Source of the DNA: Amycolatopsis endophytica
Lineage (GTDB): Bacteria; Actinomycetota; Actinomycetes; Mycobacteriales; Pseudonocardiaceae
Length of the DNA stretch: 64,000 bases
Direction of reading: 5' to 3'
Assembly (NCBI RefSeq): GCF_013410405.1
Contig: NZ_JACCFK010000002.1
Span: forward strand, 1,426,001-1,490,000
Shown here: in pieces, positions 6,808-40,405 of the stretch
Layout: every line of letters starts with the position of its first letter
Numbering within the stretch: position 1 is the first letter of the stretch
The notes under the pieces: generated by a model
What the model saw: only the letters and a program-made list of their open reading frames with translations
Databases searched by the model: none
Told to the model about the DNA's origin: nothing
Translations under genes and position numbers: made by a program

Positions 6808-6823
6808 TCAATCAAGTGATTGA
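6808..6823. promoter_or_regulatory. Perfect palindrome upstream of the BVMO gene (TetR operator candidate)
   Basis: TCAATCA-AG-TGATTGA has 7-bp perfect arms and lies 21 bp upstream of the BVMO ATG, in the 55-bp gap after the TetR gene. AT-rich symmetric sites of this size are typical TetR-family operators. It may be bound by the adjacent TetR protein or by another regulator; no second copy was found in the tetR/MFS gap. Confidence 0.6.
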
Positions 6824-6842
6824 AGAATACCAGGAAGCGGCG

Positions 6843-7427
6843 TCACCGGCTCGCGAGGAAGTCGTCCACCAGCCGGGCGCAGAACTCCTCGTCACTGGTG
6901 CGCCGCGTGATCAACGCGTTGAACAGCAACGGGCCCACGAGCCGGGCTGCGGCGAAGTCGATGTAGTCCTCCCCAGGCCGCAGATCGGCCAGCACCGCGT
7001 CGAACGGGCGGCGATAGGTGTCCACGACGTGCTCGCGCAACGCGGCGAGCCTGCCGGGCTCCCCGTCGTCCGGCGAACCGGACAGGCCGACGGCCGCCAT
7101 CCACACCAGCGCGGCCAGCGACGGCGCGCGTTCGATCTGCCCGGCCTGCGCGAGCACCAGCCGCAGCAGGCGGTCGCGGGGCGTGCCGCCCTCGGGCGGG
7201 CTCAGCGGCGGGATCAGCTCCTGGAAGGCCGCCGCCAGCAGCTCGGTGCTGTTCGCGAAGTGCCGGTACAGCGTCGACCGCGCGACCCCGCTGCGCGCGG
7301 TGACCGCCTCGATCGTCACCTGCCGGACGCCGCCCTCGGCCAGCAGGGCGACCGCCGCCGACAGGATCGCCGAGCGCGACCGGTCCAGCCGGGGGTCACG
7401 GCGTCCGGGCACCTGCTGTGTCGTCAC
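6843..7427 (-). CDS. TetR-family transcriptional regulator
   Basis: 194 residues from GTG 7427 (VTTQQVPGRRDPRLDRSR). The longer upstream frame has no family similarity and crosses the divergent promoter region. The N-terminal HTH is clear: ILSAAVALLAEGGVRQVTIEAVTARSGVARSTLYRHFANSTELL. The C-terminal ligand domain (LVLAQAGQIERAPSLAALVWMAA) is of the TetR_C_11-like kind. It sits between the BVMO operon (same strand, downstream) and a divergent MFS exporter, so it could control either or both. Confidence 0.9.
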   Translation of the reverse strand: MTTQQVPGRRDPRLDRSRSAILSAAVALLAEGGVRQVTIEAVTARSGVARSTLYRHFANSTELLAAAFQELIPPLSPPEGGTPRDRLLRLVLAQAGQIERAPSLAALVWMAAVGLSGSPDDGEPGRLAALREHVVDTYRRPFDAVLADLRPGEDYIDFAAARLVGPLLFNALITRRTSDEEFCARLVDDFLASR

Positions 7428-13600: not shown

Positions 13601-15774
13601 TTGCGTTCGAAGGTCGTCACACTGCCGTCCGGTTTGGACAGCGTGATCAGGTTGCCCTCGTCGTCGTACTCACGACGGGTGGTGCGGCCGAGCGCGTCGG
13701 TGGTGCTCACCAGCCGGTCCGCGGAGTCGTAGGAGAACACCGTGGCGTGGCCGAGCGGGTCGGTCTCCCGGATCACCCTGGCGTTCTCGTTCAGGTGGTA
13801 GACGGTGACGTGGCCCAGCGAGTCGGTGGAGTAGGTGATCCGGTTCTCGGTGTCGTACTCCATCGTCCCGGCGAGGAACCCGCCGGACCCCTCGGTGCGC
13901 ACGACCCGGCCCGCGTGGTCGTAGTGGTAGCGGTACCACTCGCCGTTGCGGTCGGTCCACCCGGTGATCCGGCCCGCCGCGTCGTAGTCGTAGCGGAACG
14001 GGCGGCCGGACGCGTTGGTCACCTCCGTGAGGCGCGCACCGGTGTAGCCGTAGCGGACCAGTTCCACCTCGCTGCCGTCGGCGGCCACCGAGTGCATCGC
14101 CGTGACCAGCCCACCGTCGGACTCCACGCGGACGCGGTGGCCGGCGCTGTGCCGGATTTCGACGGGCACACCGGCGTCGTCGCGGAGGTAGGAGATCCGC
14201 CTGCCGGCGCGGTCGCTCTCCGACGTCAGCGGCAGCGCACCGGCGCCCGGCGCGAAGTACAGCAGCCGGTCGGTCTCGCGGTCCCCGAGCAGGTAACCGC
14301 CGTCGTCGGCGCGCGTGAGCTGCCGGTTCGGGCCGGCCGGGGACGCCACCCAGGTACCGGCCTCGGGGTGCGGGAAGTGCTGCAGGGTGCCGTCGGAGGC
14401 GGCGAAGCTGACGCCCTCCTCGTGCACCTCGACCCGCTGGTCCACAGTGGACACCCAGGCGGTGCCCAGCGCGCGGCCGGCGCGGAAGGAGGAGAAGTGC
14501 GAGCGCTGGAACACCAGTGGCAGCGCGCCGAGGAACTCGAAATCGGTCTCGGTCATGATCATCTGACCGGTCGCGACGTCGATCGGGTCCTTGCAGTCGA
14601 CGACGTCGTCGAGCGAGCGCGGGTTCGAGCCCTGGTCCTTCAGGGGCGGCGGTTCCTCGACCTTCGGCACCTTCGGCGCGGCGCCACCCGCCGACGACGC
14701 GTTCGTGGTGTCGTTCAGCTTCGGCGGCGGCGCCACCGCGGGCGTGTCGGCCGGGGGCGGCGGCTTCGGGGGGTTCGCCGGAGGGTCGGCGTCCAGCTTG
14801 GGCGGTGGCGCGACCTTGTCGACGTCCGGTGTGGACGATGCGCGAGTGGTGTCGCCGGGGGTGTCGTTGAGCTTCGGCGGCGGCGCGACCTGGTCGGAGT
14901 CCTTCGGCGGGTCCTTCGGCTTGGTGTCCGGGATGTCGCCGCCGCCCTTGCCCTCCATCGGGTCCACGCTCTTCGGCCCGGCGGGCAGGTCGTTCTGCTT
15001 CTTCGGCGTCGGCGGCTTGTCGGCCTTGATCTTGTTGAGCTTGCCCGCGGTGTCGGTGAAGATGCCACCGGCCTTCTTCAACAGCTCCGACAGGGCCTTG
15101 AGCGCGTGGGTCAGCTTCCCGGTGACGTCGGCGATCTTGGCCGCGGTCTTGGCGACCTCGCTGATCACCTGCGGCACGACCCACGCCAGCGCGATGCCGA
15201 GCGTCGCGATCACCTGCAGCGCCCACGAGATCATGTGGCCGACGACCTCGGCGATGATGTCGCGCACCAGGGTCCGCACCGCGGCCACGACCGTGCCCGC
15301 GGTCTCGATACCGCTGGCGGTGCCGCTGCTGGCCTCCTTCGCCGCGGCCAGCAGGTCACCCACGTCCTTGGCCTGCTGCCGGTAGGTGTCGGCGGACGGG
15401 CCGGTCCAGCCGGTCAGGTCCGCGGTGACCTGGTTGGTCAGGTCGACCCCGACCTCGCCCAGCTCGTTCGCGATGTTCTTCCAGGTCTCCGAATGCGCCT
15501 TGACCGCATCCGGGTTGCCTGCCAGCGCGTCGAGGGCGTCCTTGAGCGGGCCGATGTGCTCGATCAGCCAGCCCACGCCCGCGGCGAAGATCGAGCCGAA
15601 CGGGTCGAGCACGAAACCGAGCGCGTCCAGGCCCGCCGCGGCCGCCCCGAGCGCGCCCGAGGCCCAGTCGCCGCTTTCGATGGCCTTGCGGAGATCCTGC
15701 GCGCCCTCCAGCAGGGAGATGCCCGAGATCGCGGTGGTGGAACTTTCTTCCTGGGCGACGAGGGGGTTCACCAC
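10687..15774 (-). CDS. RHS/YD-repeat polymorphic toxin with WXG-like N-terminus (type VII secretion substrate)
   Basis: 1695 residues. Residues 1-250 are helical with a WXG signature (GWTG, W123-x-G125), typical of ESX-secreted LXG/WXG toxins. Residues 255-385 are a Pro/Asp/Lys linker with VAPPPKL repeated three times. A DUF6531 domain begins near 396 (DPIDVATGQM), followed by roughly 40 RHS/YD repeats (YDAAGRITGWTD, YDPLGRRT) and the core-closing LGRYLSPDPLGLDAG...PLGL near 1380-1404. The variable tail (about 1405-1695) is Lys-, His- and Asn-rich and lower in GC. It includes SHDHSKMLPLWQDA, KGHGKGVLGHEPSASTHWNS and NFEHNRETSTYHG, suggesting an HNH/EndoVII-type nuclease (GH-E-like), which is inference only. 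It ends with a KRPR motif and an acidic tail. It overlaps the upstream YbaB-like gene by 7 bp and is followed at once by a terminator, with no immunity gene. Confidence 0.9.
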   Translation of the reverse strand: MVNPLVAQEESSTTAISGISLLEGAQDLRKAIESGDWASGALGAAAAGLDALGFVLDPFGSIFAAGVGWLIEHIGPLKDALDALAGNPDAVKAHSETWKNIANELGEVGVDLTNQVTADLTGWTGPSADTYRQQAKDVGDLLAAAKEASSGTASGIETAGTVVAAVRTLVRDIIAEVVGHMISWALQVIATLGIALAWVVPQVISEVAKTAAKIADVTGKLTHALKALSELLKKAGGIFTDTAGKLNKIKADKPPTPKKQNDLPAGPKSVDPMEGKGGGDIPDTKPKDPPKDSDQVAPPPKLNDTPGDTTRASSTPDVDKVAPPPKLDADPPANPPKPPPPADTPAVAPPPKLNDTTNASSAGGAAPKVPKVEEPPPLKDQGSNPRSLDDVVDCKDPIDVATGQMIMTETDFEFLGALPLVFQRSHFSSFRAGRALGTAWVSTVDQRVEVHEEGVSFAASDGTLQHFPHPEAGTWVASPAGPNRQLTRADDGGYLLGDRETDRLLYFAPGAGALPLTSESDRAGRRISYLRDDAGVPVEIRHSAGHRVRVESDGGLVTAMHSVAADGSEVELVRYGYTGARLTEVTNASGRPFRYDYDAAGRITGWTDRNGEWYRYHYDHAGRVVRTEGSGGFLAGTMEYDTENRITYSTDSLGHVTVYHLNENARVIRETDPLGHATVFSYDSADRLVSTTDALGRTTRREYDDEGNLITLSKPDGSVTTFERNALGLPVTMSEAPGVVTRWEYDATGELVRVTEPDGATTTYGHDGRGDVAAVTDALGNTLTVQSDAGGLPVAVTDPQGGVTRYERDRFGRVVAVTDPLGAVERFGYTVEGQLAWHRHADGALEQWIYDGEGNNRAHTDPVSGVTRAEVTHFDLPSAEIRPDGSRVEFAYDTERRLTAVTNEQGLVWRYSYDPAGNLVRETDFAGVTTTYAYDAADQMVERTDGSGQVTTRRYDAAGNVAEETTGGVTTRYTYSTLGWVLSADDGTSRIEFERDAAGRVLAETINGRTVRSAYDAQGRRVRRGTPSGAESVWEFDGSDQPVAVHAAGRSLRFAHDLAGREIRRELSAGAVITQSWLPGGQLAAQTVAGPGGQPSQQRSYSYRPDGLLTAVQDQLTGPRAFALDNRGRVTGVQSPRWTERYAYDLAGNLTEAVWPTTADADLVGPREVAGTAVTAAGQARYTHDAQGRVVLRERGGQVWQFLWDARGRLAGVRVPDGTSWRYSYDPLGRRTAKEHFAADGVQVLERVDFTWDGQLLVEQARSTSDGVRVTVWDYEPGTFRPLLQRDRVPLGGGQWADEQFHAVVTDPSGAPAELVTDQGAIAWFARTSVFGAVIERPATSVDTPLRFQGQYFDAETGLHYNFHRYYDPALGRYLSPDPLGLDAGPNHYAYVGNPHAFADPLGLAPTSCKKNNTTTQSTSTAGKRKRPNLTVQTQNLPSTPVTANSPGGSLYQQMSPGGKYGTQKTGKNGNPKFDKKTGKPQFYSRRDAAGYDNPSHDHSKMLPLWQDAAKSPIPIDPKTGKDIEGKQLKDWLMDKNRRFDTKEPGDPGYAGLPQNEIKGHGKGVLGHEPSASTHWNSHGGMQSTRQDNFEHNRETSTYHGIEERSRSDASGSSEEPYLSPRPDNGADRSFWDRGDPRFPDQGGPWHSWQKIQGPQPGPSGAGPGSPDSPLTAVPDTPPAKRPRVDNDGDVDMSG

Positions 15775-28753: not shown

Positions 28754-28829
28754 CTTCCGCTCCTCGTTTCGGCTGTGCCTCGAAACTAGGTCCGGAATGG
28801 ACTCCCGTCGTGCGGCGAGCGCCCTATTT

Positions 28830-28854
28830 CCGGGTGGAGAAAAACTCCACCCGG
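28830..28854 (-). terminator. Terminator closing the ten-gene ARH/ABC operon
   Basis: Perfect 10-bp stem CCGGGTGGAG / CTCCACCCGG around a five-base loop (AAAAA), starting 1 bp after the stop of the CitE-like gene. It separates that operon from the two-component operon that follows on the same strand. Confidence 0.82.
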
Positions 28855-28855
28855 A

Positions 28856-29674
28856 CTACTCCCCGGCCAGCGCCAGCACCGTGCGGGCCCCCTCGATCAT
28901 CGCCACGTCGAGGAACGTTCCGTCGGCCAGCGCGATCGCGCCGACCCCGGCCGCGGTCGCGTCGTCCAGGCGGGCCAGCACTTCGCGGGCGCGTTCGACT
29001 TCCTGTTCGCTGGGCCGGAAAGCGGCGCGAATGGTGTCCAGTTGGGACGGGTGGATCGCGGTCCGGCCGCGGAACCCCAGCGCGCGCCCGGCCCGGCAGG
29101 ACGCGGCCAGCCCGTCGAGGTCGCGTACATTGGTATAGGCCGACATCACCGGCGGCACCAGGCGCGCGGCCCGCGCCGCGACGACGATGCGGCTGCGTGC
29201 CCAGGTGAGCCCGGCGTCATCGGTGACGCCCAGGTCGGACCGCAGATCCGCCTCGCCGAGCCCGAGCGAGGCGACCTGCGGCGACGCCGTCGCGATGTCC
29301 AGCGCCCCTTCGACGCCGAGAGCCGACTCGATGAGCGGGTGCAGCTCGCGACCGGGCAGCGCGGCGGCCAGCGCGCGGATCTCCCCGGCCGACTCGACCT
29401 TCGGGATCCGGGCACCCACCTCCGGCGGAAGACCGGCCAGCGCGGCGAGGTCGTCGGCATGCCAGGGCGTGCTCACGTGATTGATCCGCACCTGCACGCG
29501 CCGCTCCGCCGCCGCCAGCAACTCCACGGCGTTCACGCGCGCCTCGGCCTTCCGCGCCGGTGCGACCGCGTCCTCCAGATCGACGAGCACGACGTCCGCC
29601 GTGGACCGCAACGCTTTCGCCACGCGGTCCGGCCGGTCGGCGGGCACGTAGAGCAGGGTCAGGGCGGCACTCAT
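28856..29674 (-). CDS. CitE/HpcH-family CoA-ester lyase-like protein
   Basis: 272 residues from ATG 29674, overlapping the stop of the CoA transferase by 4 bp. HpcH/HpaI TIM-barrel fold: TLLYVPADRPDRVAKALRSTADVVLVDLEDAVAPARKAEARVNA, RINHVSTPWHADDL, IPKVESAGEIRAL, a metal-binding Glu region PLIESALGVEG, and GFRGRTAIHPSQLDTIRAAFRPS. Stand-alone CitE-like enzymes cleave or hydrolyse malyl-CoA or citramalyl-CoA-type esters. It is the last gene of the ten-gene operon, directly after a CaiB-type CoA transferase, so it probably acts on the CoA ester that enzyme makes. Confidence 0.87.
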   Translation of the reverse strand: MSAALTLLYVPADRPDRVAKALRSTADVVLVDLEDAVAPARKAEARVNAVELLAAAERRVQVRINHVSTPWHADDLAALAGLPPEVGARIPKVESAGEIRALAAALPGRELHPLIESALGVEGALDIATASPQVASLGLGEADLRSDLGVTDDAGLTWARSRIVVAARAARLVPPVMSAYTNVRDLDGLAASCRAGRALGFRGRTAIHPSQLDTIRAAFRPSEQEVERAREVLARLDDATAAGVGAIALADGTFLDVAMIEGARTVLALAGE

Positions 29675-30879
29675 ACCGCGCCCTCCTCCCGCAGTTTCGC
29701 CACGCGCGCCGGGGAAAAACCCAGTTCCCCCAGCACTTCGTCGGTGTCGGCGCCGTGCGGGCGACCCGTGTGGCGGATAACGCCGGCGTGGCCGGACAGG
29801 CGGAACAGCGGTCCCTGCATCAGCGTCGGCCCCAGCTCCGGGTCCTCGATCTCGTGGATCGTGCCCAGCGCGCGGAACTGCGGGTCGGAGACGATGTCCT
29901 CGGCGTCGTAGATCGGGGCCACCGCGGCCTGCGCCGCCTCGAACTCGGCGACCACCTCGTCCCGGCTGCGCTGCGCGATCCAGCCGCCGACCGCCTCGTC
30001 GAGGACGTCGGCGTGCTTCGCCCGCTCCGCGCCGCTGGCGAACCACGGCTCGTCCACCAGATCGGGCCGCCCGACCAGGTGCATGACCCGCTCGGCGATC
30101 GACTGCGCCGACGTGGACACCGCCACCCACTGCCCGTCCCCGGTGCGGTAGGTGTTGCGCGGCGCGTTGTTCACCGACCGGTTGCCGGTGCGCGGTTGCA
30201 CCGACCGCAGCTGGTCCCACCGGGTGATCTGCGGCCCGAGCATCGCCAGGATCGGCTCGACGATCGCGGTGTCCACCACCTGCCCGCGCCCGTTGCGCTC
30301 CCGCGCGGACAACGCCACCATGACCGCGTACGCCGTGGCCAGCGAGGCGATCCCGTCGGCCAGCCCGAACGGCGGCAGCGTCGGCGGCCCGTCCGGTTCC
30401 CCGGTCGCGGCCGCGAACCCGCTCATCGCCTCGGCGAGCGTGCCGAACCCGGGACGCCGGCGGTACGGCCCGATCTGCCCGAACCCGGTGACGCGGGCCA
30501 GCACCAGCCCCGGGTTGCGCGCGGACAGCACCTCGTAGCCCAGGTCCCACCGCTCCAGCGTGCCGGGCCGGAAGTTCTCGATCACTACGTCCGCCTGGTC
30601 GGCCAGCGCCAGGAACACCTCGCGCCCGCCCGGTTTGCCCAGGTCGGCGGTGACGGTGCGCTTGTTGCGACCGAGCGTCTTCCACCACAGGTTGACGCCG
30701 TCCTTCGCCACGCCGTGGCTGCGCGCCGGATCGGGGCGGCCGGGGTGCTCGACCTTGATCACCTCGGCGCCCATGTCGCCGAGGTGCATCGCCGTCATCG
30801 GCCCGGCGAACAAGGTGGACGCGTCGATCACCCGCAGACCGGACAGCGCACCGGCGGCGGGGTCACGGGAGACGGTCAT
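29671..30879 (-). CDS. CaiB/BaiF-family (class III) CoA transferase
   Basis: 402 residues from ATG 30879, overlapping the upstream stop as ATGA. Signatures: LRVIDASTLFAGPMTAMHLGDMGAEVIKVEHP, NLWWKTLGRNKRTVTADLGKPGG, ADVVIENFRPGTLERWDLGY and GFGTLAEAMSGFAAATGEPDGPP. The catalytic Asp is expected in the segment FGLADGIASLATAYAVMVAL. These enzymes move CoA between carboxylic acids. Here it is coupled to a CitE-like lyase, hinting that a carboxylate released in this pathway is CoA-activated and then cleaved. Confidence 0.9.
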   Translation of the reverse strand: MTVSRDPAAGALSGLRVIDASTLFAGPMTAMHLGDMGAEVIKVEHPGRPDPARSHGVAKDGVNLWWKTLGRNKRTVTADLGKPGGREVFLALADQADVVIENFRPGTLERWDLGYEVLSARNPGLVLARVTGFGQIGPYRRRPGFGTLAEAMSGFAAATGEPDGPPTLPPFGLADGIASLATAYAVMVALSARERNGRGQVVDTAIVEPILAMLGPQITRWDQLRSVQPRTGNRSVNNAPRNTYRTGDGQWVAVSTSAQSIAERVMHLVGRPDLVDEPWFASGAERAKHADVLDEAVGGWIAQRSRDEVVAEFEAAQAAVAPIYDAEDIVSDPQFRALGTIHEIEDPELGPTLMQGPLFRLSGHAGVIRHTGRPHGADTDEVLGELGFSPARVAKLREEGAV

Positions 30880-32783
30880 GCGGTCACCTCCGGGAGGTCC
30901 CACGCGCAGCGGAACCCGACGGTCGCGCCGCGGGCCAGGCCGAGGCCCGGCAGGAGCAGTTTCACGCTGTGGTCCGGCTCGTGGCGGCCGCCCTCGACGT
31001 ACCAGTCGGACCCCTCCGCGCGGTAGTCGCTGCCGCCCTTGAGCATCACGAACCGGGTGCGGCCGTCGGAGTGCTCGCTCTCCGTCCAGTTCCACACCGC
31101 TGGTTCGCCGCGCCGCAGCAACCCCGTCTCACCGGCGAGCTGCCATTCGTCCTCCGTGGGCAGTCGCCCGCCGCGCCACGCGCAGTAGGCGCGGGCGTCG
31201 TCGAGGTCCACATACGTCACCGGCTCGTGGTCGGCACCGCTGCCCGCCAGGAACCGGTGCGACTCGGCGGGCCGATAGCCGGTGGCGCGCACGAACCCGG
31301 CGAACTGCGCGTTCGTCACCTCGGTCGCCGCGATCGCCACCGGGTTCGCCAGGACACCGTCCCGCTGGAGGGTCCGCGCGTCGTGCAGCCGTGGTGGCAA
31401 CGGTTTCCACTCGTCGACGTAGGGCGCACCCTGGTACATTCCGGTTTCCCGCGCGCGGTACCGCACGGTCAGGACGTACGGCCCGGCGGGCACGACCACG
31501 GCGTCCGGCTCCGGCTCCCCGGTGCTCTTCGCCGGCTGACGGCGCACGGCGAGCCGGTGCGGGAACCGGGCGTCGGGATCGTGCGGCAGGCCGGGAAGTT
31601 CCGGAACCCATCCGCGCGTGAACGCCGCGATGCCCCGCGCCGGAACACTCTCGCCCAACAACGGCGTGCCGTCCACGACCGGACCGTCGTAGTCCTCGTC
31701 GCTCCGGTTGACGACCGTCCACAGTATCCGGTCGCCGAGATCCCACCGGGACCCGTACACGCCCGCCTCTTCGGCACCGGGCGCCAGCTCGGCCAGCGGC
31801 GTCCACTCACCGTGCAGCAACAGGTCTTCGGCCGCGCGCTGCACGGTCACCATGCGCGACACGGTCGCCGCGTCGCGCCGGGACCACCCGACCCACACGC
31901 CGAACACGACCTCCCACACCATGACGCCGACCCCGTTGAGCCACGCCGACTGCAGCTCCTCGGTGTGATCGCGGTGCCAGCGGCGGACGTGGTGCTGCAT
32001 GTGCCGCCGCTCGTAGAAGTGCGCGCGCAGCACGCCGGGAACCGGCGAATCGGCGAAGAACTGGGCCCACGACGAGGCGTGGTCGGCGATCCGCTCGACC
32101 GGCAGCTTCGACTCGCCCTCCAGCACGATCCCGGGCTTCGCGCGTTCCAGCGCCTCGACGAACTCCGGTTCGGCCTTCTTGAGCGTGTCCAGGAAGACGC
32201 CGTCCGCGCCGAGGCCGGCGACCAGCGAGGCCAGTTCGGTGAGGTCGTCCCCGCCGCGGCGGGTGCCGACGTCCCACGGGTTGTAGTCGACGAACACGTG
32301 CAGGCCCGCGTCGTGGAACTGCCGCACGAGGCCGGTGAGACCGGGCACGTCGCGGTAGAAGTCCCACTGGTTGCGGTCGTCGAGGCCGATCACCGGGTAG
32401 GCGTGCCACAGCACGACGGCGTCCAGACCGGCGAAGCGTTCGCGGGCGTCGGCGAGGAACCGGTCGGGCGTGAACCGGTGCTGCTCGAAGTCGTAGAGCA
32501 GTTCGTCCCACAGCCACACCTGCGCGACCGTGCGGCAACGCGCCGCCCAGGCCGCGCCGGGCCGCTCGTAGGCCCCGCCGGTGTAGCCGTGACGGGCACG
32601 GGAGTCCTCGCGCCACTCGCGCAGGCGCTCGCGCCAGGCCGGACGGTCGGCGGGGTCACCGGGCGCGGCGAAGATCTTCGCCTCGTCCAGCGCGACCAGC
32701 TGCTCCTCGGTGAGCGGCCCGAGCGGCACCTCCGTCGGCCGGTCGATCGGGCGCGGCACCAGCGGGTCGAAGGCATAGGTCAT
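30876..32783 (-). CDS. TIM-barrel protein fused to an FGE/SUMF1-like domain
   Basis: 635 residues. Residues about 60-330 look like a glycosidase-type TIM barrel (FAGLDAVVLWHAYPVIGLDDRNQWDFYRD, FHDAGLHVFVDYNPWDVGTRRGGDD, GADGVFLDT, IVLEGESKLP). A beta-rich middle follows. Residues 500-635 are an FGE-sulfatase domain (EVTNAQFAGFVRATGYRPAE, YVDLDDARAYCAWRGGRLPTEDEWQLAG, GFRCAWD). The Cys pair that makes formylglycine in true FGE enzymes is not visible, so the domain more likely binds substrate or has another role. It is coupled by ATGA overlaps to the ribokinase-like gene upstream and the CoA transferase downstream. A hydrolase or lyase step on the imported sugar conjugate is inferred. Confidence 0.72.
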   Translation of the reverse strand: MTYAFDPLVPRPIDRPTEVPLGPLTEEQLVALDEAKIFAAPGDPADRPAWRERLREWREDSRARHGYTGGAYERPGAAWAARCRTVAQVWLWDELLYDFEQHRFTPDRFLADARERFAGLDAVVLWHAYPVIGLDDRNQWDFYRDVPGLTGLVRQFHDAGLHVFVDYNPWDVGTRRGGDDLTELASLVAGLGADGVFLDTLKKAEPEFVEALERAKPGIVLEGESKLPVERIADHASSWAQFFADSPVPGVLRAHFYERRHMQHHVRRWHRDHTEELQSAWLNGVGVMVWEVVFGVWVGWSRRDAATVSRMVTVQRAAEDLLLHGEWTPLAELAPGAEEAGVYGSRWDLGDRILWTVVNRSDEDYDGPVVDGTPLLGESVPARGIAAFTRGWVPELPGLPHDPDARFPHRLAVRRQPAKSTGEPEPDAVVVPAGPYVLTVRYRARETGMYQGAPYVDEWKPLPPRLHDARTLQRDGVLANPVAIAATEVTNAQFAGFVRATGYRPAESHRFLAGSGADHEPVTYVDLDDARAYCAWRGGRLPTEDEWQLAGETGLLRRGEPAVWNWTESEHSDGRTRFVMLKGGSDYRAEGSDWYVEGGRHEPDHSVKLLLPGLGLARGATVGFRCAWDLPEVTA

Positions 32784-33670
32784 GACGCCTCCTCGACCTC
32801 GGCCAGTGCCGGGACCGCGTCCTGCGCGCCGGGCCGCGTCACCGCGAGCGCGGCCGCCACCCCGGCGAGCCGGGCCGCTTCGGGCAGGGCCAGGCCACGG
32901 GCCAGCCCTGCGGCGAGCACCCCGCAGAACGTGTCCCCGGCGCCGGTCGTGTCGACGGCCTTCACCTCGACGCCCGGCACGCGCACCGGTTCGCGGTCCC
33001 GTTCGGCCACCAGCGAACCCTCCGCGCCGAGCGTGATCACCACGGCGGGCACGCGCTCCAGCAGGGCCGCGGCCAGCTCTTCGGGCGCGGCCTGGGCGTG
33101 GGCGAGGTCCGCGGCCTCGTACTCGTTGACGATGAGCAGGTCCAGCGCGGCCCAGATGTCGTCCGGCAGGTCCTGCGAGGGCGCCGCGTTGAGCACCATC
33201 ACCGCGCCCGGACGCCGTGCCGCCGCGGCCGCGCGCACCATGTCCAGCGGGATTTCCAGCTGGGCCAGCACGACATCGGCATGCGCGATGCGGTCCACGT
33301 GCCCGGCGGTCAGCTCCAGGCGGAGGTTCGCGCCCGGCGCCACCACGATCGCGTTCTCCCCGTCCGGGGACACCGTGATCAATGCCGTCCCGGTCGGAGC
33401 GTCCACACGGGACACGAGATCGGTGCGGACCCCGGCCCGATCCAGCGATTCCAGCAGCAGCGCGGCCGAGTCGTCCGCACCCAGAGCGGCGGCGAAGGTG
33501 GTGTCCGCTCCCCCGGCCCGCGCCGCGGCCACCGCCGAGTTCGCGCCCTTGCCGCCGGGGCTGCGGCGCAGGTCGCCGCCCAGGATGGTCTCCCCGCCTC
33601 CGGGGTGACGGGGCACGTCGACGACGAGGTCGACGTTGGCCGAGCCGACGACCACGACCTGCCCGGTCAT
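32780..33670 (-). CDS. rbsK: PfkB-family carbohydrate kinase, ribokinase-like
   Basis: 296 residues. Ribokinase signatures: VVVGSANVDLVVDVPRHPGGGETILG, SPGGKGANSAVAAARAG (PfkB signature 1), NAAPS, NEYEA, and DTTGAGDTFCGVLAAGLARG with the catalytic Asp of GAGD. It closely follows the RbsK pattern, so D-ribose or a similar pentose or nucleoside is the likely substrate. ATGA overlaps link it to the ADP-ribosylglycohydrolase-like gene upstream and the TIM-barrel/FGE gene downstream. It probably phosphorylates the sugar freed by those hydrolases. Confidence 0.85.
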   Translation of the reverse strand: MTGQVVVVGSANVDLVVDVPRHPGGGETILGGDLRRSPGGKGANSAVAAARAGGADTTFAAALGADDSAALLLESLDRAGVRTDLVSRVDAPTGTALITVSPDGENAIVVAPGANLRLELTAGHVDRIAHADVVLAQLEIPLDMVRAAAAARRPGAVMVLNAAPSQDLPDDIWAALDLLIVNEYEAADLAHAQAAPEELAAALLERVPAVVITLGAEGSLVAERDREPVRVPGVEVKAVDTTGAGDTFCGVLAAGLARGLALPEAARLAGVAAALAVTRPGAQDAVPALAEVEEAS

Positions 33671-34959
33671 GCGGCACCTCGTTCCACGGTCAGCGCGGCC
33701 GTGCGGGCCGCGAGGTCGGTGATGCGCTGCTCGCCGCCGGGCAGCGAGGTCGCGATGCGGTTGTCCAGCGGTTTCGCCCACTGCTCCGGCACCCCGTGCA
33801 GGGCGCCGACGACCCCACCGACAGTAGCCGCCGCCGAATCGGTGTCCCATCCGGCCGTCACGGCCAGCGACACGCTCGGGCCGAACTCCCCGCCACCGCG
33901 GGCCAGCGCGTGCGCGATCACGGCCGCGTTGTTGAGCACGTGGACCCAGTGCAGGCCGCCGTACTCCTCGTGCAGGCGGTCGAGGCTGTCCGCCGACCGT
34001 CCGAAGCGGATCGCATTCGCCAGGGCACTTCCCGGCGGGACAACGGTTTCCGCCGCATCGAGCACCTCGTCGACGGTGTCGCAGACCATCGACGCCGAAG
34101 CCAGCGCGGCGGCCCACATCGCGCCGTAGATGCCGTTGCGCGTATGGCTGAGGCGGGCATCGGTCCACGCCATTCGCGCCGCCGCACGCACGTCGCCCGG
34201 CGAGACCCAGCCGAACACGTCGGCGCGGATGAGCGCCCCGATCCACTCGCGGAACGGGTTGTGGTGCGTGGCGGTTTCGGGCACCGGGCGGGCGTCGAGG
34301 ATGTTGCGGTAGGCCGCGCGCTCGGCCGTGAACACCCGCCCCGCGGGCAGGTTGTCCAGCCACAGCTGGGCGACATCGTCGGTGGTGAACAGGCGGCCGC
34401 GCTGTTCCAGCAGGGTCAGCGCGAGCATCGGGTAGTTGAGGTCGTCGTCCTCCGGCATCCCGTCGATGTTCTCTTCCAGGGAGGTCGGGGCCGAGCGGCG
34501 GTTCCACGGCCACCGCGCGGCGACCTCGTCCGGCAGGCCGACGGCGGTGAACCAGCGGTCGAGCGGCCAGCGTCCGGTCGCGCGCAGGATCTCCTCGATG
34601 CCCTCACGCGGGATCTTCTCCACCGGCTTGCCGAGCAGACATCCCGCGGCACGGCCGGTCCACGCGTCGAGCACGCGGTCGCGTCCGGCGGGCAGGTCCG
34701 GCGCGGGCGGCAGCAGCGCGACGATGGCGTCCCAGTCGTCCGGTCCCGTCGGCGCGGCCAGCTCGTCGAGCAACTCACGCGCCAGCGCCCGCCGTTCCGG
34801 CGGCGCCGGGTTCGGCCCGGCGCCGCTGACCGCGGGCACCGGGTCGCCACCGGCCGCGACCCAGCGGTCCCGGATCGCGGTGACGTCCCGGCCCTCCGCG
34901 GCGGACTGCACCAGCTCGTGGGCCAGCAGGTCCTCGGGCTGGGCCCAGGTCAGCCTCAC
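33667..34959 (-). CDS. ADP-ribosylglycohydrolase-family protein, long variant
   Basis: 430 residues. After a unique N-terminal extension of about 100 residues, the ARH/DraG fold begins at VLDAWTGRAAGCLLGKPVEKIPREGI. The first metal motif reads EDDDLNY rather than the usual TDDT, and the second is GWDTDSAAATVGGVVGAL, so both acidic clusters for a bi-metal site remain. The family cleaves ADP-ribose N- or O-glycosidic bonds, but many bacterial members act on other ribosides. Within the operon it overlaps the second ARH gene by 4 bp, suggesting the two act together or as a heteromer. Confidence 0.85.
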   Translation of the reverse strand: MRLTWAQPEDLLAHELVQSAAEGRDVTAIRDRWVAAGGDPVPAVSGAGPNPAPPERRALARELLDELAAPTGPDDWDAIVALLPPAPDLPAGRDRVLDAWTGRAAGCLLGKPVEKIPREGIEEILRATGRWPLDRWFTAVGLPDEVAARWPWNRRSAPTSLEENIDGMPEDDDLNYPMLALTLLEQRGRLFTTDDVAQLWLDNLPAGRVFTAERAAYRNILDARPVPETATHHNPFREWIGALIRADVFGWVSPGDVRAAARMAWTDARLSHTRNGIYGAMWAAALASASMVCDTVDEVLDAAETVVPPGSALANAIRFGRSADSLDRLHEEYGGLHWVHVLNNAAVIAHALARGGGEFGPSVSLAVTAGWDTDSAAATVGGVVGALHGVPEQWAKPLDNRIATSLPGGEQRITDLAARTAALTVERGAA

Positions 34960-36122
34960 GACGCCGCCTTGTCGAGCGCGTCGAGGTCCCGCAGCCGCGC
35001 GAGGGCCCGTTCCCGGTCCGCTTTCAGGATGTCCGCGGCGGCCGAGGCCATCAGGCGCCCGGTCTCGCGAAGGTCCATCTTGCTGGCCTCCCCGATCGCG
35101 TCGACCCAGTCCGCGGGCACCACCGCGGTGCCGCCGAGACCGGCGCAGAGGGCACCGGCCATGACGGCGATCGAGTCGGCGTCCCGCCCGTAGTTGACCG
35201 CCCCGAGCACCGCGCCGCGGTAGTCGCCGCGATGTCCGAGGACGAACCCGAGCGCGGCGGGCAGCTCCTCGATCGACTTGGTGCGCGACGGGCGCCGCGC
35301 GTCCATCGACATCTGCCGGTAGGCCGGGCCCACCGAATCGAACGGCGCGACCGTGTCCCGGATCAGCCGGGCCAGCTCGCGCTCCTCGTCGTCGTTCCGC
35401 GGAGCGCTCGTCCAGCCCTCGAACGCGTCCACCACGGCGTGCAGGGCCGCGGCGGTCCCGTCGTGCGCGACGTCGAGCGCCGCCGTCACGACGTCGTCGA
35501 CCGTCGCGCCGGGGGCGACCGACGCCGCGACCATCGCCGCGAACACGCCGGCCGCCTCACGACCGTAGCTGGACTGGTGCGCGCCGGTCAGGTCGATCGC
35601 CTCGGCGTAGGCGTCCCGCGGGTTGCCCGCGTTGGCGATCCCGACCGGCGCCACGTACATCGCCGCGCCGCAGTTGACGACATTGCCGACCCCGGCCTCG
35701 CGGGGGTCGACATGTCCATAGTGAAGCCTGGCGACGATCCACTTCTCCGCCAGGAAGACCCGCTGCAGCAACAGCGCGGTCGACTCCAGCTCGGGAACCC
35801 AGCGCGGCTCCCCGATCATCAGCGGCACCAGGTCCTCGGCCATCGCGTACGCGTCGAGGTGCGCGCGGCGCTTCGCGTACACCTCGACGAGCGCGCGGGT
35901 CATCAGGGTGTCGTCGGTGACATGCCCGTCCCCCTTGTGGTAGGGCGCGATCGGACGCGCGTCCCGCCAGTTCGGGAACCACGGGCCGACGATTCCGGCC
36001 ACCCGGCCGCCGTGCCGTTCCTCGATCTGCTCCGGGGTCCACCCCTCGGTGGCACCGCCCAGCGCGTCCCCCACGGCCGCCCCGGTGATCACCGCCACCG
36101 CTCGGTCTTCCAGCCAGGTCAC
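34956..36122 (-). CDS. ADP-ribosylglycohydrolase-family protein, short variant
   Basis: 388 residues. Canonical family layout: AVAVITGAAVGDALGGATEGWTPEQI, then HVTDDTLMTRALVEVYAKRR (TDDT metal motif), SSYGREAAGVFAAMVAAS and NYGRDADSIAVMAGALCAGLGG (second acidic cluster). It cleaves an N- or O-linked ribosyl bond in known members; the natural substrate here is unknown. It lies 45 bp after the ABC solute-binding protein and is coupled by a 4-bp overlap to the longer paralogue. A role in intracellular hydrolysis of an imported riboside is inferred from the importer and ribokinase-like neighbours. Confidence 0.88.
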   Translation of the reverse strand: MTWLEDRAVAVITGAAVGDALGGATEGWTPEQIEERHGGRVAGIVGPWFPNWRDARPIAPYHKGDGHVTDDTLMTRALVEVYAKRRAHLDAYAMAEDLVPLMIGEPRWVPELESTALLLQRVFLAEKWIVARLHYGHVDPREAGVGNVVNCGAAMYVAPVGIANAGNPRDAYAEAIDLTGAHQSSYGREAAGVFAAMVAASVAPGATVDDVVTAALDVAHDGTAAALHAVVDAFEGWTSAPRNDDEERELARLIRDTVAPFDSVGPAYRQMSMDARRPSRTKSIEELPAALGFVLGHRGDYRGAVLGAVNYGRDADSIAVMAGALCAGLGGTAVVPADWVDAIGEASKMDLRETGRLMASAAADILKADRERALARLRDLDALDKAAS

Positions 36123-36167
36123 CGGCTCACGTTTCCCTTCTGAGATGGTCTCGGACTCGGCCGCCCG

Positions 36168-37442
36168 CTACCGGTTGATGGAGTCCCAGCCGTCGGACAG
36201 TTCCTTGGACAGGCCGTTCGCGTCGATCTGCTGTGCCAGGAACTTCTGGTAGGCCGGGGTCGCGACGGTGTCCTTCCACTGCGCGTACTTGTCGACGAAC
36301 AGGTAGGGCGCCGAGGTGAGGTACTGGCCCGAGGCCAGGATCTCCTTCCAGCCGTTCTGCGCGCCGAGCTTGGTGTCGAGCGCGTCGCGGGCCGAGGTGG
36401 TCGCCGGGATCAGCGCGTCGGCCTCGTTGAGGGCGGCCAGGTTCTCGGTGCTGGTGAAGAAGTCGATGAACTGCGCGGCCTGCTCGACGTGCTCGGAGTC
36501 CCTGTTCACCGACAGCGTCTGCGGGTTCGCGGCCTGCGCGGGACCGGCGGGCCCGGCCAGCGGCGGCAGCACGACCCAGTCGAACCCGGCGGGTGCGTCC
36601 TTGGCGATGTTGGCCGCCTGGAACGAACCCTGGATCGTCATCGCGGTCTGGCCCGCGTAGAACGGCGCGAGCGCCTTCGATCCGGACTGGGTCAGCGTGA
36701 CCGGCAGGATCGAGTTGTCCTGGTGCGCCATGGCGTCGACGAGCTGCGGCAGCGCCATCTCGCCCTGGCCGATGGAGATCTTCGCGTCGGTGCCGGTGCC
36801 CTCGAAGTACTGGCCGCCGAACGCGGGCGCCAGCGCGACCATCGACGCGGTCGGGCTGGACAGGCCCCAGCTCAGGCCGTAGGCGCCGTCACGGGTGGTC
36901 GCCTTGGCGATGTCCCGCAGCTGGTCCCAGGTCATCGTGTCCCCGGTCGGCACGGCGACCCCGGCCTTGTCCAGCAGCGACTTGTTGGCGAAGACCACGT
37001 AGGACTGCAGCTCGGTCGGCTGGGCGATCACCTGGCCGTCGACCGTGACCGAATCCAGCACGCCCTTCGGGATGTCGGCCTTTTTCGCCTCCGTGAGGTA
37101 GGGCGACAGATCGGCCAGATAGCCGTCGCGGGCGAACGGGACGACCCCGGCCGCCTCGTAGTGGATGATGTCCGGCGCGCTGCCCGCGTTGAACTGGGTG
37201 ATCAGCTTGTCGTAGACGCCGTCCCAGCCCGCCTGCACGACCTCGACGTGCACGTCGGGGTGGGCCTTGTTCCAGTCGTCGACGATCTTGTTCGTCGCCG
37301 CGATCGCCGCCGGCTGGTCGGACAGGGACTGGAACTTCAACGTCACCGGACCGCCGTCATCACCGCTGCCACCGGAGCACGCGGCGAGCACCAGGCTCGT
37401 GACCGCCGCGAGCGCGGCGGCCACGACACGTCGAGACTTCAT
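36168..37442 (-). CDS. ABC sugar transporter solute-binding lipoprotein (family 1)
   Basis: 424 residues from ATG 37442 (MKSRRVVAAALAAVTSLVLAAC, lipobox LAAC, Cys22). Family 1 sugar-binding fold: KIVDDWNKAHPDVHVEVVQAGWDGVYDKLITQFNAGSAPDIIHYEAAGVVPFARDGYLADLSPYL, and later AGQTAMTIQGSFQAANI. It is membrane-anchored and delivers substrate to the two permeases encoded just upstream. No ATPase gene is present, so a shared MsiK-type ATPase elsewhere is expected, as is usual in actinomycetes. Ligand unknown; probably a glycoside or sugar conjugate. Confidence 0.92.
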   Translation of the reverse strand: MKSRRVVAAALAAVTSLVLAACSGGSGDDGGPVTLKFQSLSDQPAAIAATNKIVDDWNKAHPDVHVEVVQAGWDGVYDKLITQFNAGSAPDIIHYEAAGVVPFARDGYLADLSPYLTEAKKADIPKGVLDSVTVDGQVIAQPTELQSYVVFANKSLLDKAGVAVPTGDTMTWDQLRDIAKATTRDGAYGLSWGLSSPTASMVALAPAFGGQYFEGTGTDAKISIGQGEMALPQLVDAMAHQDNSILPVTLTQSGSKALAPFYAGQTAMTIQGSFQAANIAKDAPAGFDWVVLPPLAGPAGPAQAANPQTLSVNRDSEHVEQAAQFIDFFTSTENLAALNEADALIPATTSARDALDTKLGAQNGWKEILASGQYLTSAPYLFVDKYAQWKDTVATPAYQKFLAQQIDANGLSKELSDGWDSINR

Positions 37443-37468
37443 TGACCGACCTTTCGTTTTCCGAGGGT

Positions 37469-38296
37469 TCATCCCTTCACCGCCCCGGCCATCAGCCCAC
37501 TGGTGAGCCTGCGGCGCAGGAGGGTGAAGAAGACGATGCTGGGGATCGCGGCGAGCACGGCGCCCGCGGCCAGCGGCCCGAGCGCGACCTTGCCCTCGCC
37601 GCCGATGAACATGTTCAGCGTGATCGGCAGGGTGTAGTTCTCGGGCGACTGCAGGAGGACGAGCGCGAAGAAGAACTCGTTCCAGGAGGAGACGAAGCTG
37701 AACATCGCGGTGGCCACGATGCCCGGCATCAGCAGCGGGAAGACGATCCGCCGCAGCACGGTCCACCGGCCCGCGCCGTCCATCGCGCCGGCTTCCTCCA
37801 GGTCCACCGGGATCGCGGTGACGTAGCCCTGCAGCATCCACAGCGCGAACGGCAGCGTGTACGTGGTGTGGACGAGCGTCAGCCCGGCCAGGCTGTCGGA
37901 CAGCCCGATGGTGCGCAGGATCAGGAACAGCGGCAGGATCACCAGCACGACCGGGAACACCTGCGAGGTCAGGATCCAGCCGACCCCGGCGGCGCGGACC
38001 TTGCCCCGCAGCCGGGCGAGCACGTAGGACGCGGGCAGCGCGATGACGATCACCAGCGCGGTGGACACCAGCGCGACGATCAGGCTGTTGCCCGCCGAGT
38101 GGATCAGGCCCTGCCGGTCGAGCGCCTCGGAGTAGTTGCTCCAGTGCCACTGGTCGGGCAGCAGGCTGACGGTGAGCGAGTTCAGCTCACCCGAGGACTT
38201 CACCGACGCCGAGACCAGCCACAGCAACGGGAAACCGAGGAACAGGATGTAGGCGGCCAGTGCCAGGTACTGGGCGGGACGCAGGAGGACTCGCAT
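37469..38296 (-). CDS. ABC sugar permease (MalG/ThuG-like)
   Basis: 275 residues with six membrane segments. The binding-protein-dependent permease motif reads EEAGAMDGAGRWTVLRRIVFPLLMPGIVATAMFSFVSSWNEFFFALVLL, typical of the MalG side of the CUT1 family. It follows the MalF-like permease by 2 bp and precedes the solute-binding protein by 26 bp. Confidence 0.92.
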   Translation of the reverse strand: MRVLLRPAQYLALAAYILFLGFPLLWLVSASVKSSGELNSLTVSLLPDQWHWSNYSEALDRQGLIHSAGNSLIVALVSTALVIVIALPASYVLARLRGKVRAAGVGWILTSQVFPVVLVILPLFLILRTIGLSDSLAGLTLVHTTYTLPFALWMLQGYVTAIPVDLEEAGAMDGAGRWTVLRRIVFPLLMPGIVATAMFSFVSSWNEFFFALVLLQSPENYTLPITLNMFIGGEGKVALGPLAAGAVLAAIPSIVFFTLLRRRLTSGLMAGAVKG

Positions 38297-38298
38297 GG

Positions 38299-39252
38299 TC
38301 ACCGCCCCTGCCCGGCGCGGTCGTCGCGGAACTGCGACCGCAGGTAGATCGCCAGCAGCGCCACGACGATGATGACCAGCACCAGTCCCATCGCGGCCGC
38401 GTATCCGATGTTGCGGTTCTTGAACGCTTCGAGGTAGATGAAGAGCACCGGCACCATGGTCTTTCCGCCCGGCCCGCCCTCGGTGAGGACGTAGACCAGC
38501 GAGAACGAGTTGAAGTTCCAGATGAAGTTCAGCGACGTGATCGAGGCGACGATCGGCCGCAGGCTGGGCCAGGTGACGGCCGTGAACCGCCGCCACGCGC
38601 CCGCACCGTCCACCGACGCCGCTTCGTGCAGGTCCTGCGGGATCTGCTGCAACCCGGCCAGCAGCGTGACCGTGGTCTGCGGCATGCCGACCCACACGCC
38701 GACGACGATCACCGCGGGCAGGGCCGTGGAGAAGTCGCCGAGCCAGTTGATGTCGTCGGGCAGGCCGACGCTGCCCAGGAACGCGTTGAGCGGCCCGCCG
38801 TTGGCCGAGTAGATCATCTGCCACATGATCGCCACGACGACCGGCGGCATCGCCCACGGGATCAGGGCGAGCACGCGGGTCAGGCCCTGCAGTTTCAGCC
38901 CGGAATTCAGCAGCAGCGCCAGGCCCATCGAGGCGGCCAGCTGCAGTACCGTGACCCCGACCGTCCAAATCAGACCGATGCGGAGGCTGTCCCAGAAGAA
39001 CGAGTTGCCCGCCAGGCGCGTGAAGTTCTCGATGCCGGTGAAGTCGTAGTCCGGGTTGCGGACCAGGCGGGCGTCGGTGAACGCCAGCGCCAGGCCCATC
39101 ACCAGTGGCGCGACGCTGAGCACGAGGATCGGGATCAGCGACGGCATCACCAGCGCGATCGCTTCGCGGCGGCGGGAACGCGCCTGGGCGCCCTTGCGCC
39201 CGCGGGGCGCCGGTGCGGGTGCGGGGGCCCGGGTGGCCGGGGCCAGGGTCAT
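38299..39252 (-). CDS. ABC sugar permease (MalF/ThuF-like)
   Basis: 317 residues. A long cytosolic N-terminus (APAPAPRGRKGAQARSRRREA) precedes six or seven membrane segments. The permease EAA loop reads LHEAASVDGAGAWRRFTAVTWPSLRPIVASITSLNFIWNFNSFSLVYVLTEGGPGG. Partner of the MalG-like permease. The start overlaps the stop of the LacI gene by 4 bp, so regulator and importer share one transcript. Confidence 0.92.
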   Translation of the reverse strand: MTLAPATRAPAPAPAPRGRKGAQARSRRREAIALVMPSLIPILVLSVAPLVMGLALAFTDARLVRNPDYDFTGIENFTRLAGNSFFWDSLRIGLIWTVGVTVLQLAASMGLALLLNSGLKLQGLTRVLALIPWAMPPVVVAIMWQMIYSANGGPLNAFLGSVGLPDDINWLGDFSTALPAVIVVGVWVGMPQTTVTLLAGLQQIPQDLHEAASVDGAGAWRRFTAVTWPSLRPIVASITSLNFIWNFNSFSLVYVLTEGGPGGKTMVPVLFIYLEAFKNRNIGYAAAMGLVLVIIVVALLAIYLRSQFRDDRAGQGR

Positions 39253-40274
39253 CGCTGACCTCCCTCGATGAGACCGCCTGCGGCGGGAACGGTGGATCCG
39301 CGCACGATCAGCTCGGGACCGACGGTGACCTGCTGCGCGTCGTGGTCGCCGTCGTCGGCGAGGCGGAGCATGAGCCGCGCGGCGGCGCGCCCGCGTTCGG
39401 TCGAGCCGAGGGACACGCTGGTGAGCGTGGGGTGGAAGACGCGGCCCAGCTCGGTGTCGTCCATGCCGGTCACCGCGATGTCGTCCGGGACCGAGAGGCG
39501 GAGTTCGCGCGCGGCGTGGATGGCGCCGATGGCGAGAAGATCGTTGGCGGCGACGATCGCGTCGAGCCGTTCCGGTGCGTTCGCGAGGAGACGGCGGGCG
39601 GCGACGAGGCCCGCGGCGACGGTGAAGTCCTTGGCGGTCTCGGTGGTGTGGTTCCCGCCCGCCGCGGCGTGGAAGCCCCGCTGGCGGGCTTCACCGGGGG
39701 TGGTGTCGAGTGGCCCGTTGAGGAAGCCGAGCCTGGTGCGGCCGAGTTCCTGCAGGTGCCGGACGGCCTGGCCGATGCCGCCCGCGGAGTCGGTGGAGAC
39801 CGAGCTGATGCCGTGGGCGTCCAGCGCGCGCCCGATCACGACGACCGGCACCGGGGTCTGCCGGATTTCCCGGATCAGCCGGTCGTCGGTGCGCAGCGGG
39901 CTGACGATCATGCCGTCGACGAAGCCGCTGTTCAGGCTGCGGACCAGGTCGGTGGTCGAGGTGGAGGTGTCGCCGGTGGTCATGACCACGACGCGGTACC
40001 CGTGCGGTGCGAGAACCTCGTGGATGGCCCCCATCATCTCGACGTAGACCGGGTTGCCGATGTCCGCGACCGCGAACGCGATCTGGAAGGTCTTCTTCAT
40101 CCGCAGCGAGCGGCCGATGGCGTCCGGGCTGTACCCCAGCTCCTCCGCGGCGGCCCGCACGCGCTCGATCATCGCCGGGCTCGCGCCGGTCCCGTGCAGG
40201 GCACGCGAGGTCGAGGCCAGTGACACCCCGGCCCGCTCGGCCACCTGCAGCAGCGTGGCCCGTGTAGACGTCAT
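39249..40274 (-). CDS. LacI-family repressor of the ten-gene operon
   Basis: 341 residues from ATG 40274 (MTSTRATLLQVAERAGVSLASTSRALHGTGASPAMIERVRAAAEELGY, classic LacI HTH and hinge). The periplasmic-binding-like effector domain includes IAFAVADIGNPVYVEMM, DGMIVSPLRTDDRLI and AIVAANDLLAIGAIHAARELRLSVPDDIAVTGMDD. The longer frame upstream would overlap the operators and is rejected. It is first in the operon and therefore autoregulated through the twin operators just upstream. Confidence 0.93.
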   Translation of the reverse strand: MTSTRATLLQVAERAGVSLASTSRALHGTGASPAMIERVRAAAEELGYSPDAIGRSLRMKKTFQIAFAVADIGNPVYVEMMGAIHEVLAPHGYRVVVMTTGDTSTSTTDLVRSLNSGFVDGMIVSPLRTDDRLIREIRQTPVPVVVIGRALDAHGISSVSTDSAGGIGQAVRHLQELGRTRLGFLNGPLDTTPGEARQRGFHAAAGGNHTTETAKDFTVAAGLVAARRLLANAPERLDAIVAANDLLAIGAIHAARELRLSVPDDIAVTGMDDTELGRVFHPTLTSVSLGSTERGRAAARLMLRLADDGDHDAQQVTVGPELIVRGSTVPAAGGLIEGGQR

Positions 40275-40301
40275 CGTCGCTCCGTCGTTCCTGAGATCCG
40301 T

Positions 40302-40348
40302 TGGAATCGTTTCCAGCTCACTCTGAGTCCCGGTTGGAAACGATTCCA
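40302..40348. promoter_or_regulatory. Twin LacI operators upstream of the ten-gene operon
   Basis: TGGAATCGTTTCCA (40302-40315) and TGGAAACGATTCCA (40335-40348) are exact reverse complements of each other. Each is a near-perfect LacI-type palindrome centred on CG, with TGGAA/TTCCA arms. Their centres are 33 bp apart, about three helical turns, which would suit cooperative binding. They sit 28-74 bp upstream of the lacI start and face the divergent LLM oxidoreductase gene. Confidence 0.85.
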
Positions 40349-40405
40349 AGGGGGTAGGAGCGATAGTGTCACTCGATCAGAGCAGTGTCAACACCCGCCC
40401 CCGCG

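Follow-up and report, generated by a model that had tools for sequence, protein, structure and literature searches.

Here we describe an operon of ten genes in a 64,000-nucleotide stretch of the Amycolatopsis endophytica genome (contig NZ_JACCFK010000002.1, positions 1,426,001 to 1,490,000; hereafter the window, in whose numbering its features are given). It encodes a LacI-family regulator, two permeases and the solute-binding protein (SBP) of an ATP-binding cassette (ABC) importer, two ADP-ribosylglycohydrolase-family proteins (ARH1 and ARH2), a PfkB-type kinase, a protein combining an N-terminal barrel with a C-terminal SUMF1/FGE-like domain (TIM/FGE), a family III coenzyme A (CoA) transferase (CoAT) and a CitE-type acyl-CoA lyase (CitE). 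We read it as a putative self-contained operon, repressed by LacI, for the breakdown of a glycoside that contains ribose and bears a 3-hydroxy(di)carboxylic acid, and consider the case for this reading to be evenly balanced. More tentatively, and with doubt prevailing over confidence for the proposal as a whole, we suggest that the ARH fold was recruited here as furanosidases encoded in tandem, with two to four in each operon, for the catabolism of a widespread acylated ribosyl glycoside whose hydroxy acid would be burned via CoA transfer and CitE cleavage. This would represent a new pathway, a role of the ARH family other than on ADP-ribose and a new glycosidase family of barrel-plus-SUMF1 architecture.

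Sequence comparison established the unit with its operators, the extent of its conservation and the protein families, the last assigned by Pfam and NCBIfam profile scans. The ten genes are intact, contain no internal stops and form one unit on the minus strand (28856-40274), ordered from 40274 downwards as lacI, permease 1, permease 2, SBP, ARH1, ARH2, kinase, TIM/FGE, CoAT and CitE (Table 1). The nine junctions measure, in transcription order, -4, +2, +26, +45, -4, -4, -4, -4 and -4 bp; seven are thus a 2-bp gap or a 4-bp overlap and the two larger gaps flank the SBP gene, in agreement with the initial annotation, which had described nearly all genes as joined by short gaps or ATGA overlaps. 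Median gaps in the 60 relatives measured were -4 to 3 bp, with 38 and 82 bp on either side of the SBP gene.

Relatives were collected by scanning GTDB genomes with the TIM/FGE family, which gave 140 confirmed relatives; the best 80 were kept, and the sample therefore leans to the nearest ones. Ten of these 80 loci were too short by the length rule applied (three of them still carry all ten genes), and 70 were eligible. All ten genes were found in the same order and on the same strand in 62 of the 70, and only the kinase was absent in seven (loci L015, L044, L057, L058, L064, L068 and L074). The remaining locus, L040, has retained the permeases, SBP, ARH2 and TIM/FGE alone. Operon loci belong to Amycolatopsis, Saccharopolyspora, Prauserella, Promicromonospora, Cellulosimicrobium, Oerskovia, Georgenia, Cellulomonas, Microbacterium, Nocardiopsis, Glycomyces and others, with TIM/FGE identities among operon relatives ranging from 91 to 55 percent. 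As a control, four window genes flanking the operon were found in 3, 2, 0 and 2 of the 80 loci, the two matches of the fourth showing only 32-34 percent identity. Because the ten-gene order is the same in 62 of 70 eligible loci, the unit is, by this comparison, a conserved module far beyond chance; a failure of the genes to co-occur in other actinomycetes, which the initial annotation had named as evidence against its idea, was not seen. Judged by profile matches, the distribution of the module is patchy: an E-value of 1e-20 or lower was reached by ARH2 in 19 of 100 genomes, and ARH1 matched at E 1e-40 in 48 of the 296 class genomes; in the phylum sample, ARH1 matched in 10 of 396. A. endophytica is included each time. 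The TIM/FGE profile found A. endophytica alone among the 396, a weak negative, two candidates per listed genome having been scored. Furthermore, at least 25 recurrent flank groups were seen in the relatives, many of which are, by reading, overlapping frames of one stretch.

The twin LacI operators proposed earlier at the operon start were borne out: the window has two matches at up to two mismatches vs 0.04 expected, and none of 100 shuffles reached two. When up to one mismatch was allowed, sites of the TGGAANCGNTTCCA type were present ahead of lacI in 62 of 73 loci (none in 20 shuffling rounds), and when up to three were allowed, in 69 of 73 (shuffles averaging 7), with a spacing of 31-35 bp in 44 of the 50 loci that have exactly two sites at up to one mismatch. 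Searched in the genomes of eight relatives, TGGAAACGTTTCCA (up to one mismatch) gave two sites in seven and one in the eighth, all 15 lying ahead of lacI by coordinates; read backwards as a control, it gave none in seven genomes and one in the other. A looser operator pattern had only two perfect matches in the A. endophytica genome, both at this operon, and its 20 sites with one mismatch are uninformative, because the backwards control yielded 22. Since the sites sit at lacI both in the relatives' genomes and in A. endophytica, the regulator looks local to the operon; it has the predicted helix-turn-helix and ligand domains and a palindromic operator ahead of its own gene. Its top NCBIfam scores were for GntR/RbsR/CytR and UriR among others, none above the respective cut-off.

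The importer has the composition of the CUT1 type, i.e. an SBP_bac_1 lipoprotein with two BPD_transp_1 permeases, and the nearest solved relatives of the SBP are Lmo0181, then YesO. No ABC ATPase was found by Pfam among the ten operon proteins, and three OB_MalK ATPase matches lie elsewhere in the A. endophytica genome, consistent with the earlier suggestion that the importer probably uses a shared ATPase. The ribokinase-like character of the kinase is likewise sustained by its nearest solved relatives and its conserved residues: among 66 sequences, GSxNxD, GGKGxN and the E of qlExP are invariant at the named letters and DTTGAGDT is invariant or at least 90% conserved. In E. coli RbsK, these motifs hold the ribose- and ATP-site residues. 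If the product is plain ribose, a kinase encoded elsewhere would be expected where the operon has none, and six of the seven such genomes do contain, outside the operon, a match to the ribokinase profile TIGR02152 at E 1e-40, one of them above its cut-off.

Both ARH proteins belong to PF03747 (cut-off 26.2 bits), ARH1 covering profile positions 2-286 and ARH2 positions 2-281 of 287. Proteins of this family bind metal through the acidic motifs TDDT and DxDT/S. In alignments of 75 sequences each, TDDT is invariant and DADS mostly at least 90% conserved in ARH1, and ARH2 has PEDDDL in place of TDDT together with an invariant DTDS. Further 21 loci were gathered, comprising 13 regions from an ARH1 search, seven from an ARH2 search and one Nonomuraea record. 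In 14 of them (L108, L135-L140, L142-L147 and L179) two extra genes, ARHa and ARHb, stand beside ARH1 and ARH2; these were found in none of the 80 loci of the first sample, and the ten ARHa/ARHb open reading frames (ORFs) scanned, from seven loci, all matched PF03747. One family accounts for many of the four-ARH genomes. Among the others, L113 has all ten genes of the window operon, and L114 and L141 all except the kinase; in L109 to L112, ARH2 stands either by itself or together with ARH1 or a kinase. By these comparisons, the steady core is ARH1 with ARH2, usually accompanied by CoAT and CitE (16 of 21), and TIM/FGE and ARHa/ARHb are accessory.

Other settings of the ARH family were also met. 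In L110 (4164-12418), divergent relatives of ARH2 and ARH1 lie near a GFO/IDH/MocA oxidoreductase, a UPF0261 protein and a LarA-like protein, possibly another ARH pathway; in L109 (151-5268), an ARH2 relative and a kinase stand between a mannitol-dehydrogenase-like gene and an APH-family phosphotransferase gene. A. endophytica itself has PF03747 matches outside the operon at C1:64163-65050, C1:3595175-3595999 and C1:1815216-1817230, one of them under the cut-off.

The two-domain make-up of TIM/FGE was recognised in the initial annotation; the glycosidase-type fold of its barrel had been missed. The barrel has no Pfam match and no close PDB sequence relative (its profile gave nothing below E 0.07 against PDB sequences), and a viral fold library returned weak matches only. 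A model of the barrel alone, from 65 sequences, reached a pLDDT of 85.6; a full-length model from 16 sequences was poor (51.5) and was discarded. The best folds for the barrel model are of alpha-amylase/GH129/alpha-galactosidase type, and an aspartate following strand 4 (D199) and two glutamates at strand 5 (E222/E224) are invariant in the 65 sequences. Retaining alpha-glycosidase barrels carry one acid after strand 4 and another at strand 5. The N-terminal domain models as a glycosidase-type barrel, new here. In the C-terminal part, PF03781 matches at residues 474-558, the best stretch spanning positions 30-127 of its 255. FGE has a conserved catalytic cysteine pair; no cysteine occurs among the 154 invariant positions of 75 aligned TIM/FGE sequences, and the SUMF1-like domain is probably non-catalytic.

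The pairing of CoA transferase and lyase, also pointed out initially, recurs in 69 of 70 eligible loci and in 16 of the 21 further ones; the TIM/FGE-CoAT gap was at most 20 bp in all 60 loci measured and the CoAT-CitE gap in 56 of 60. CoAT scored 213.2 bits against succinyl-CoA:mesaconate CoA-transferase (NF041294), under its cut-off of 700. The top NCBIfam score of CitE was 168.6 bits for RipC (citramalyl-CoA lyase, NF038242), under the cut-off of 375, and it is termed CitE-like. The glutamate of its I-E-S-A motif is invariant and the aspartate of G-E-A-D-L at least 90% conserved, both aligning with the same residues in solved lyases. We take them as the probable counterparts of Glu112 and Asp138, the Mg ligands of Rv2498c according to the available part of the source (PMC6689899), by way of printed alignments that did not include Rv2498c itself. 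No hydratase or dehydrogenase was found by Pfam among the ten operon proteins, so the acid is likely already a 3-hydroxy acid. It should be mentioned that L139 has, between CoAT and CitE (13714-14435), a small antisense ORF pair which is toxin-antitoxin-like by reading and, by reading, holds no hydratase.

In a part of the relatives, a PF00756 (CE1-type) esterase adjoins the operon, with a secretion signal read at its N-terminus and, in two of the three esterases first scanned, a beta-propeller repeat; its solved relatives are mostly feruloyl and carbohydrate esterases. Its catalytic part matched in 22 of 101 loci, in 18 downstream on the same strand, in one convergent (L077) and in three divergent from lacI (L140, L145 and L146). 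The latter three have an operator copy with one or two mismatches just upstream of the esterase start and one or two more ahead of lacI, and in L077, where the contig stretch has no lacI, TGTAAACGTTTACA (two mismatches) lies just upstream of the esterase ORF 4245-6941. Within the set L135-L147, only L140, L142, L145 and L146 have operator matches with up to two mismatches, in each case next to lacI or the esterase. The protein families named initially were confirmed by Pfam; not noted at that stage were this esterase, which shares the operator in some relatives, and the additional pair of ARH genes in others.

The pathway that we infer, including the repression, each catalytic step and the substrate, would run as follows. 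In some relatives, the secreted esterase under the same operator would first trim an ester outside the cell; the lipoprotein and the two permeases would take up the glycoside with energy from a shared MalK-type ATPase; and the TIM/FGE barrel, acting like a retaining alpha-glycosidase, would remove a glycosyl unit. ARH1 and ARH2 might then hydrolyse furanosyl (ribosyl) bonds to give D-ribose and the acid, of which the former would be converted by the kinase to ribose 5-phosphate and the latter activated by the CoA transferase, the CitE-type lyase presumably cleaving the acyl-CoA into acetyl-CoA and an oxo acid (e.g. glyoxylate, pyruvate or acetoacetate). The route outlined in the initial annotation, from import through ribosyl cleavage and phosphorylation to CoA activation and lyase cleavage, is supported in part, by the unit, the kinase residues and the CoAT-CitE linkage; the glycosidase, esterase and extra ARH steps were missing from it.

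A number of observations weigh against this pathway. Every activity is derived from family membership; ARH-fold proteins are described for ADP-ribosylated targets, and a close solved relative was found for neither ARH1 nor ARH2. The barrel model's fold matches (TM-scores 0.41-0.54 to the model, about 9-14% identity) hold at fold level only. The kinase scored 267.6 bits against TIGR02152, below the cut-off of 299.65, and is for this reason named ribokinase-like only, and the genome of L064, which lacks the operon kinase, has no other TIGR02152 match at E 1e-40. Moreover, accessory parts vary between lineages: of the 14 four-ARH loci, L140, L145 and L146 also have a TIM/FGE match, which is absent in the other 11. 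Locus L040 is without CoAT and CitE; for CoAT, the rest of its genome offers matches of 37-38% identity at best, and a search of this genome did not find ARH1. In the 25 kb of L179, neither CoAT nor CitE was seen. Operator sites are weak or absent in Glycomyces, to which all four loci without a site even at three mismatches belong, and L114, L138, L139, L141 and L179 have lacI and no operator match at up to two mismatches, so the regulator's site is changed or lost there. Finally, the esterase was not found in the A. endophytica genome, in a search run without a positive control.

Some of these observations suit other explanations. The same catabolic logic could apply to another furanose, e.g. 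apiose or arabinofuranose, with the ARH proteins as general furanosidases and a kinase of other specificity, as the kinase score under the ribokinase cut-off would allow. The SBP is of a general sugar type and has as its second-nearest solved relative YesO, presumably linked to pectin; the linked feruloyl-esterase-like CE1 protein points to plant material, and some of the host genera are plant-biomass degraders. However, the presumed ribose-site residues are conserved in the kinase, and ribokinase-family matches occur elsewhere in six of the seven genomes lacking it, and we regard another furanose as unlikely. It is also conceivable that one regulator governs two pathways, a sugar branch (importer, ARH, kinase and TIM/FGE) and CoAT-CitE for an acid entering otherwise, for instance released by the esterase, which would free acid and sugar extracellularly. 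The reduced gene set of L040, and L142, where CoAT-CitE form a separate group ahead of lacI, are in its favour; the close spacing of TIM/FGE, CoAT and CitE in nearly all loci measured makes such a division quite unlikely.

The ARH family name would rather suggest salvage of nucleosides, NAD or ADP-ribose derivatives, in which ARH would free ribosyl from bases or ADP-ribose and the kinase recycle the ribose; LacI scores near CytR, UriR and RbsR, among others, and the E. coli yegTUV operon, where according to the available part of the source (PMC10819704) a nucleoside-type transporter and a putative sugar kinase accompany an ARH protein, agree with it. Set against this are an importer resembling sugar importers, the absence by Pfam of any Nudix, phosphatase or deaminase family among the ten proteins, and a CoA transferase, a lyase and a glycosidase-type barrel that salvage leaves unexplained, so that we judge it to be decidedly improbable. 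Removal of ADP-ribose from cell proteins or DNA, with no carbon catabolism at all, has only the family name to recommend it and is barely credible, as the sugar-type importer, LacI control, CoA-dependent lyase and linked esterase would have no place in it. Bacillithiol, mycothiol, queuosine, alpha-ribazole and apiose oxidation were considered from general knowledge and set aside.

Table 1. Features of the operon and its ends (window positions).
Feature	Position	Strand	Evidence
Possible promoter hexamers TTGACA-N17-CACTAT	40363..40391	-	ahead of operators; read from sequence
LacI operator 1, TTGGAAACGATTCCAA (predicted)	40334..40349	.	conserved ahead of lacI in relatives
LacI operator 2, TTGGAATCGTTTCCAG (predicted)	40301..40316	.	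conserved ahead of lacI in relatives
LacI-family regulator, 341 aa	39249..40274	-	PF00356, PF13377
ABC permease 1 (UgpA/MalF type), 317 aa	38299..39252	-	PF00528; NCBIfam under cut-offs
ABC permease 2 (GlcU/MalG type), 275 aa	37469..38296	-	PF00528; NCBIfam under cut-offs
Solute-binding lipoprotein (SBP_bac_1), 424 aa	36168..37442	-	PF01547, PF13416; lipobox-like LAAC
ARH1, ADP-ribosylglycohydrolase-family, 388 aa	34956..36122	-	PF03747, 157.3 bits; invariant TDDTLMT
ARH2, ADP-ribosylglycohydrolase-family, 430 aa	33667..34959	-	PF03747, 152.9 bits; invariant PEDDDL, GWDTDS
Ribokinase-like PfkB kinase, 296 aa	32780..33670	-	PF00294; best solved relatives ribokinases
TIM/FGE two-domain protein, 635 aa	30876..32783	-	N-terminal glycosidase-type barrel (modelled); C-terminal SUMF1/FGE-like domain
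Family III CoA transferase (CoAT), 402 aa	29671..30879	-	PF02515, 386.9 bits
CitE-type acyl-CoA lyase, 272 aa	28856..29674	-	PF03328; nearest solved relatives 8khl/9nzb
Perfect hairpin	28829..28855	-	11-bp stem, TTTTT loop; starts directly after CitE stop codon

With regard to the ends of the operon, the promoter reading of the hexamers is weak, because the promoter scan made no call there. The perfect hairpin at which the operon was said to stop is present; its role as a conserved terminator was not upheld, since it has no T tract, was not reported by the terminator caller, and a stem of at least 9 bp lies 3' of CitE in only seven of 76 relatives, vs 1.6% of 380 control windows. The scanned neighbours in the window, a luciferase-like monooxygenase upstream and a protein without Pfam match and a histidine kinase downstream, look unrelated to the operon.

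Should the ribosyl glycoside pathway hold, dozens of actinomycete species and the four-ARH genomes would share a route for a compound which, within the literature searched, is not listed as bacterial food. The large ARH family would gain a metabolic role outside ADP-ribosylation, a barrel-plus-SUMF1 enzyme family would be added, and an unrecognised ribose-hydroxyacid glycoside would be expected in soil or plant matter, the substrate being directly accessible via the binding protein and the repressor. Actinomycetes have LacI-controlled CUT1 sugar-import operons powered by a shared MsiK/MalK ATPase; the present operon resembles these in its lacI gene, two permeases, lipoprotein SBP, glycosidase-like protein and want of an own ATPase, and differs by the presence of ARH-family genes (two to four), a CoA transferase and a CitE-type lyase. 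With Rbs ribose utilisation systems it shares a ribokinase-like kinase under a LacI-type regulator, whereas its importer is of CUT1 rather than RbsABC type and its ARH, glycosidase-like and acid-branch genes are additional.

In agreement with the initial annotation, which knew of no pathway combining these steps, no described pathway or operon of this gene combination was found in open-licence literature; in the accessible part of one candidate (PMC10434189), the matching words stand in unrelated places. E. coli yegTUV, whose gene functions are given as unknown and which includes the ARH-family protein YegU and the putative sugar kinase YegV, likewise joins a transporter, an ARH-family protein and a sugar kinase in one operon with a dedicated regulator, but as far as the available part of the source goes (PMC10819704), its transporter is of nucleoside-symporter type and its regulator of the GntR family, and it has one ARH and no CoA transferase, lyase or glycosidase. 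In the itaconate degradation operons ict/ich/ccl, according to the parts of the sources at hand (PMC12599236, PMC12290011, PMC6689899), a CoA transferase feeds citramalyl-CoA lyase, a pair recurring here with a CitE that scores best against RipC; unlike in these operons, there is no hydratase among the ten genes, and CitE lies far under the RipC cut-off. Set beside these systems, the operon would encode a new pathway from known protein families.

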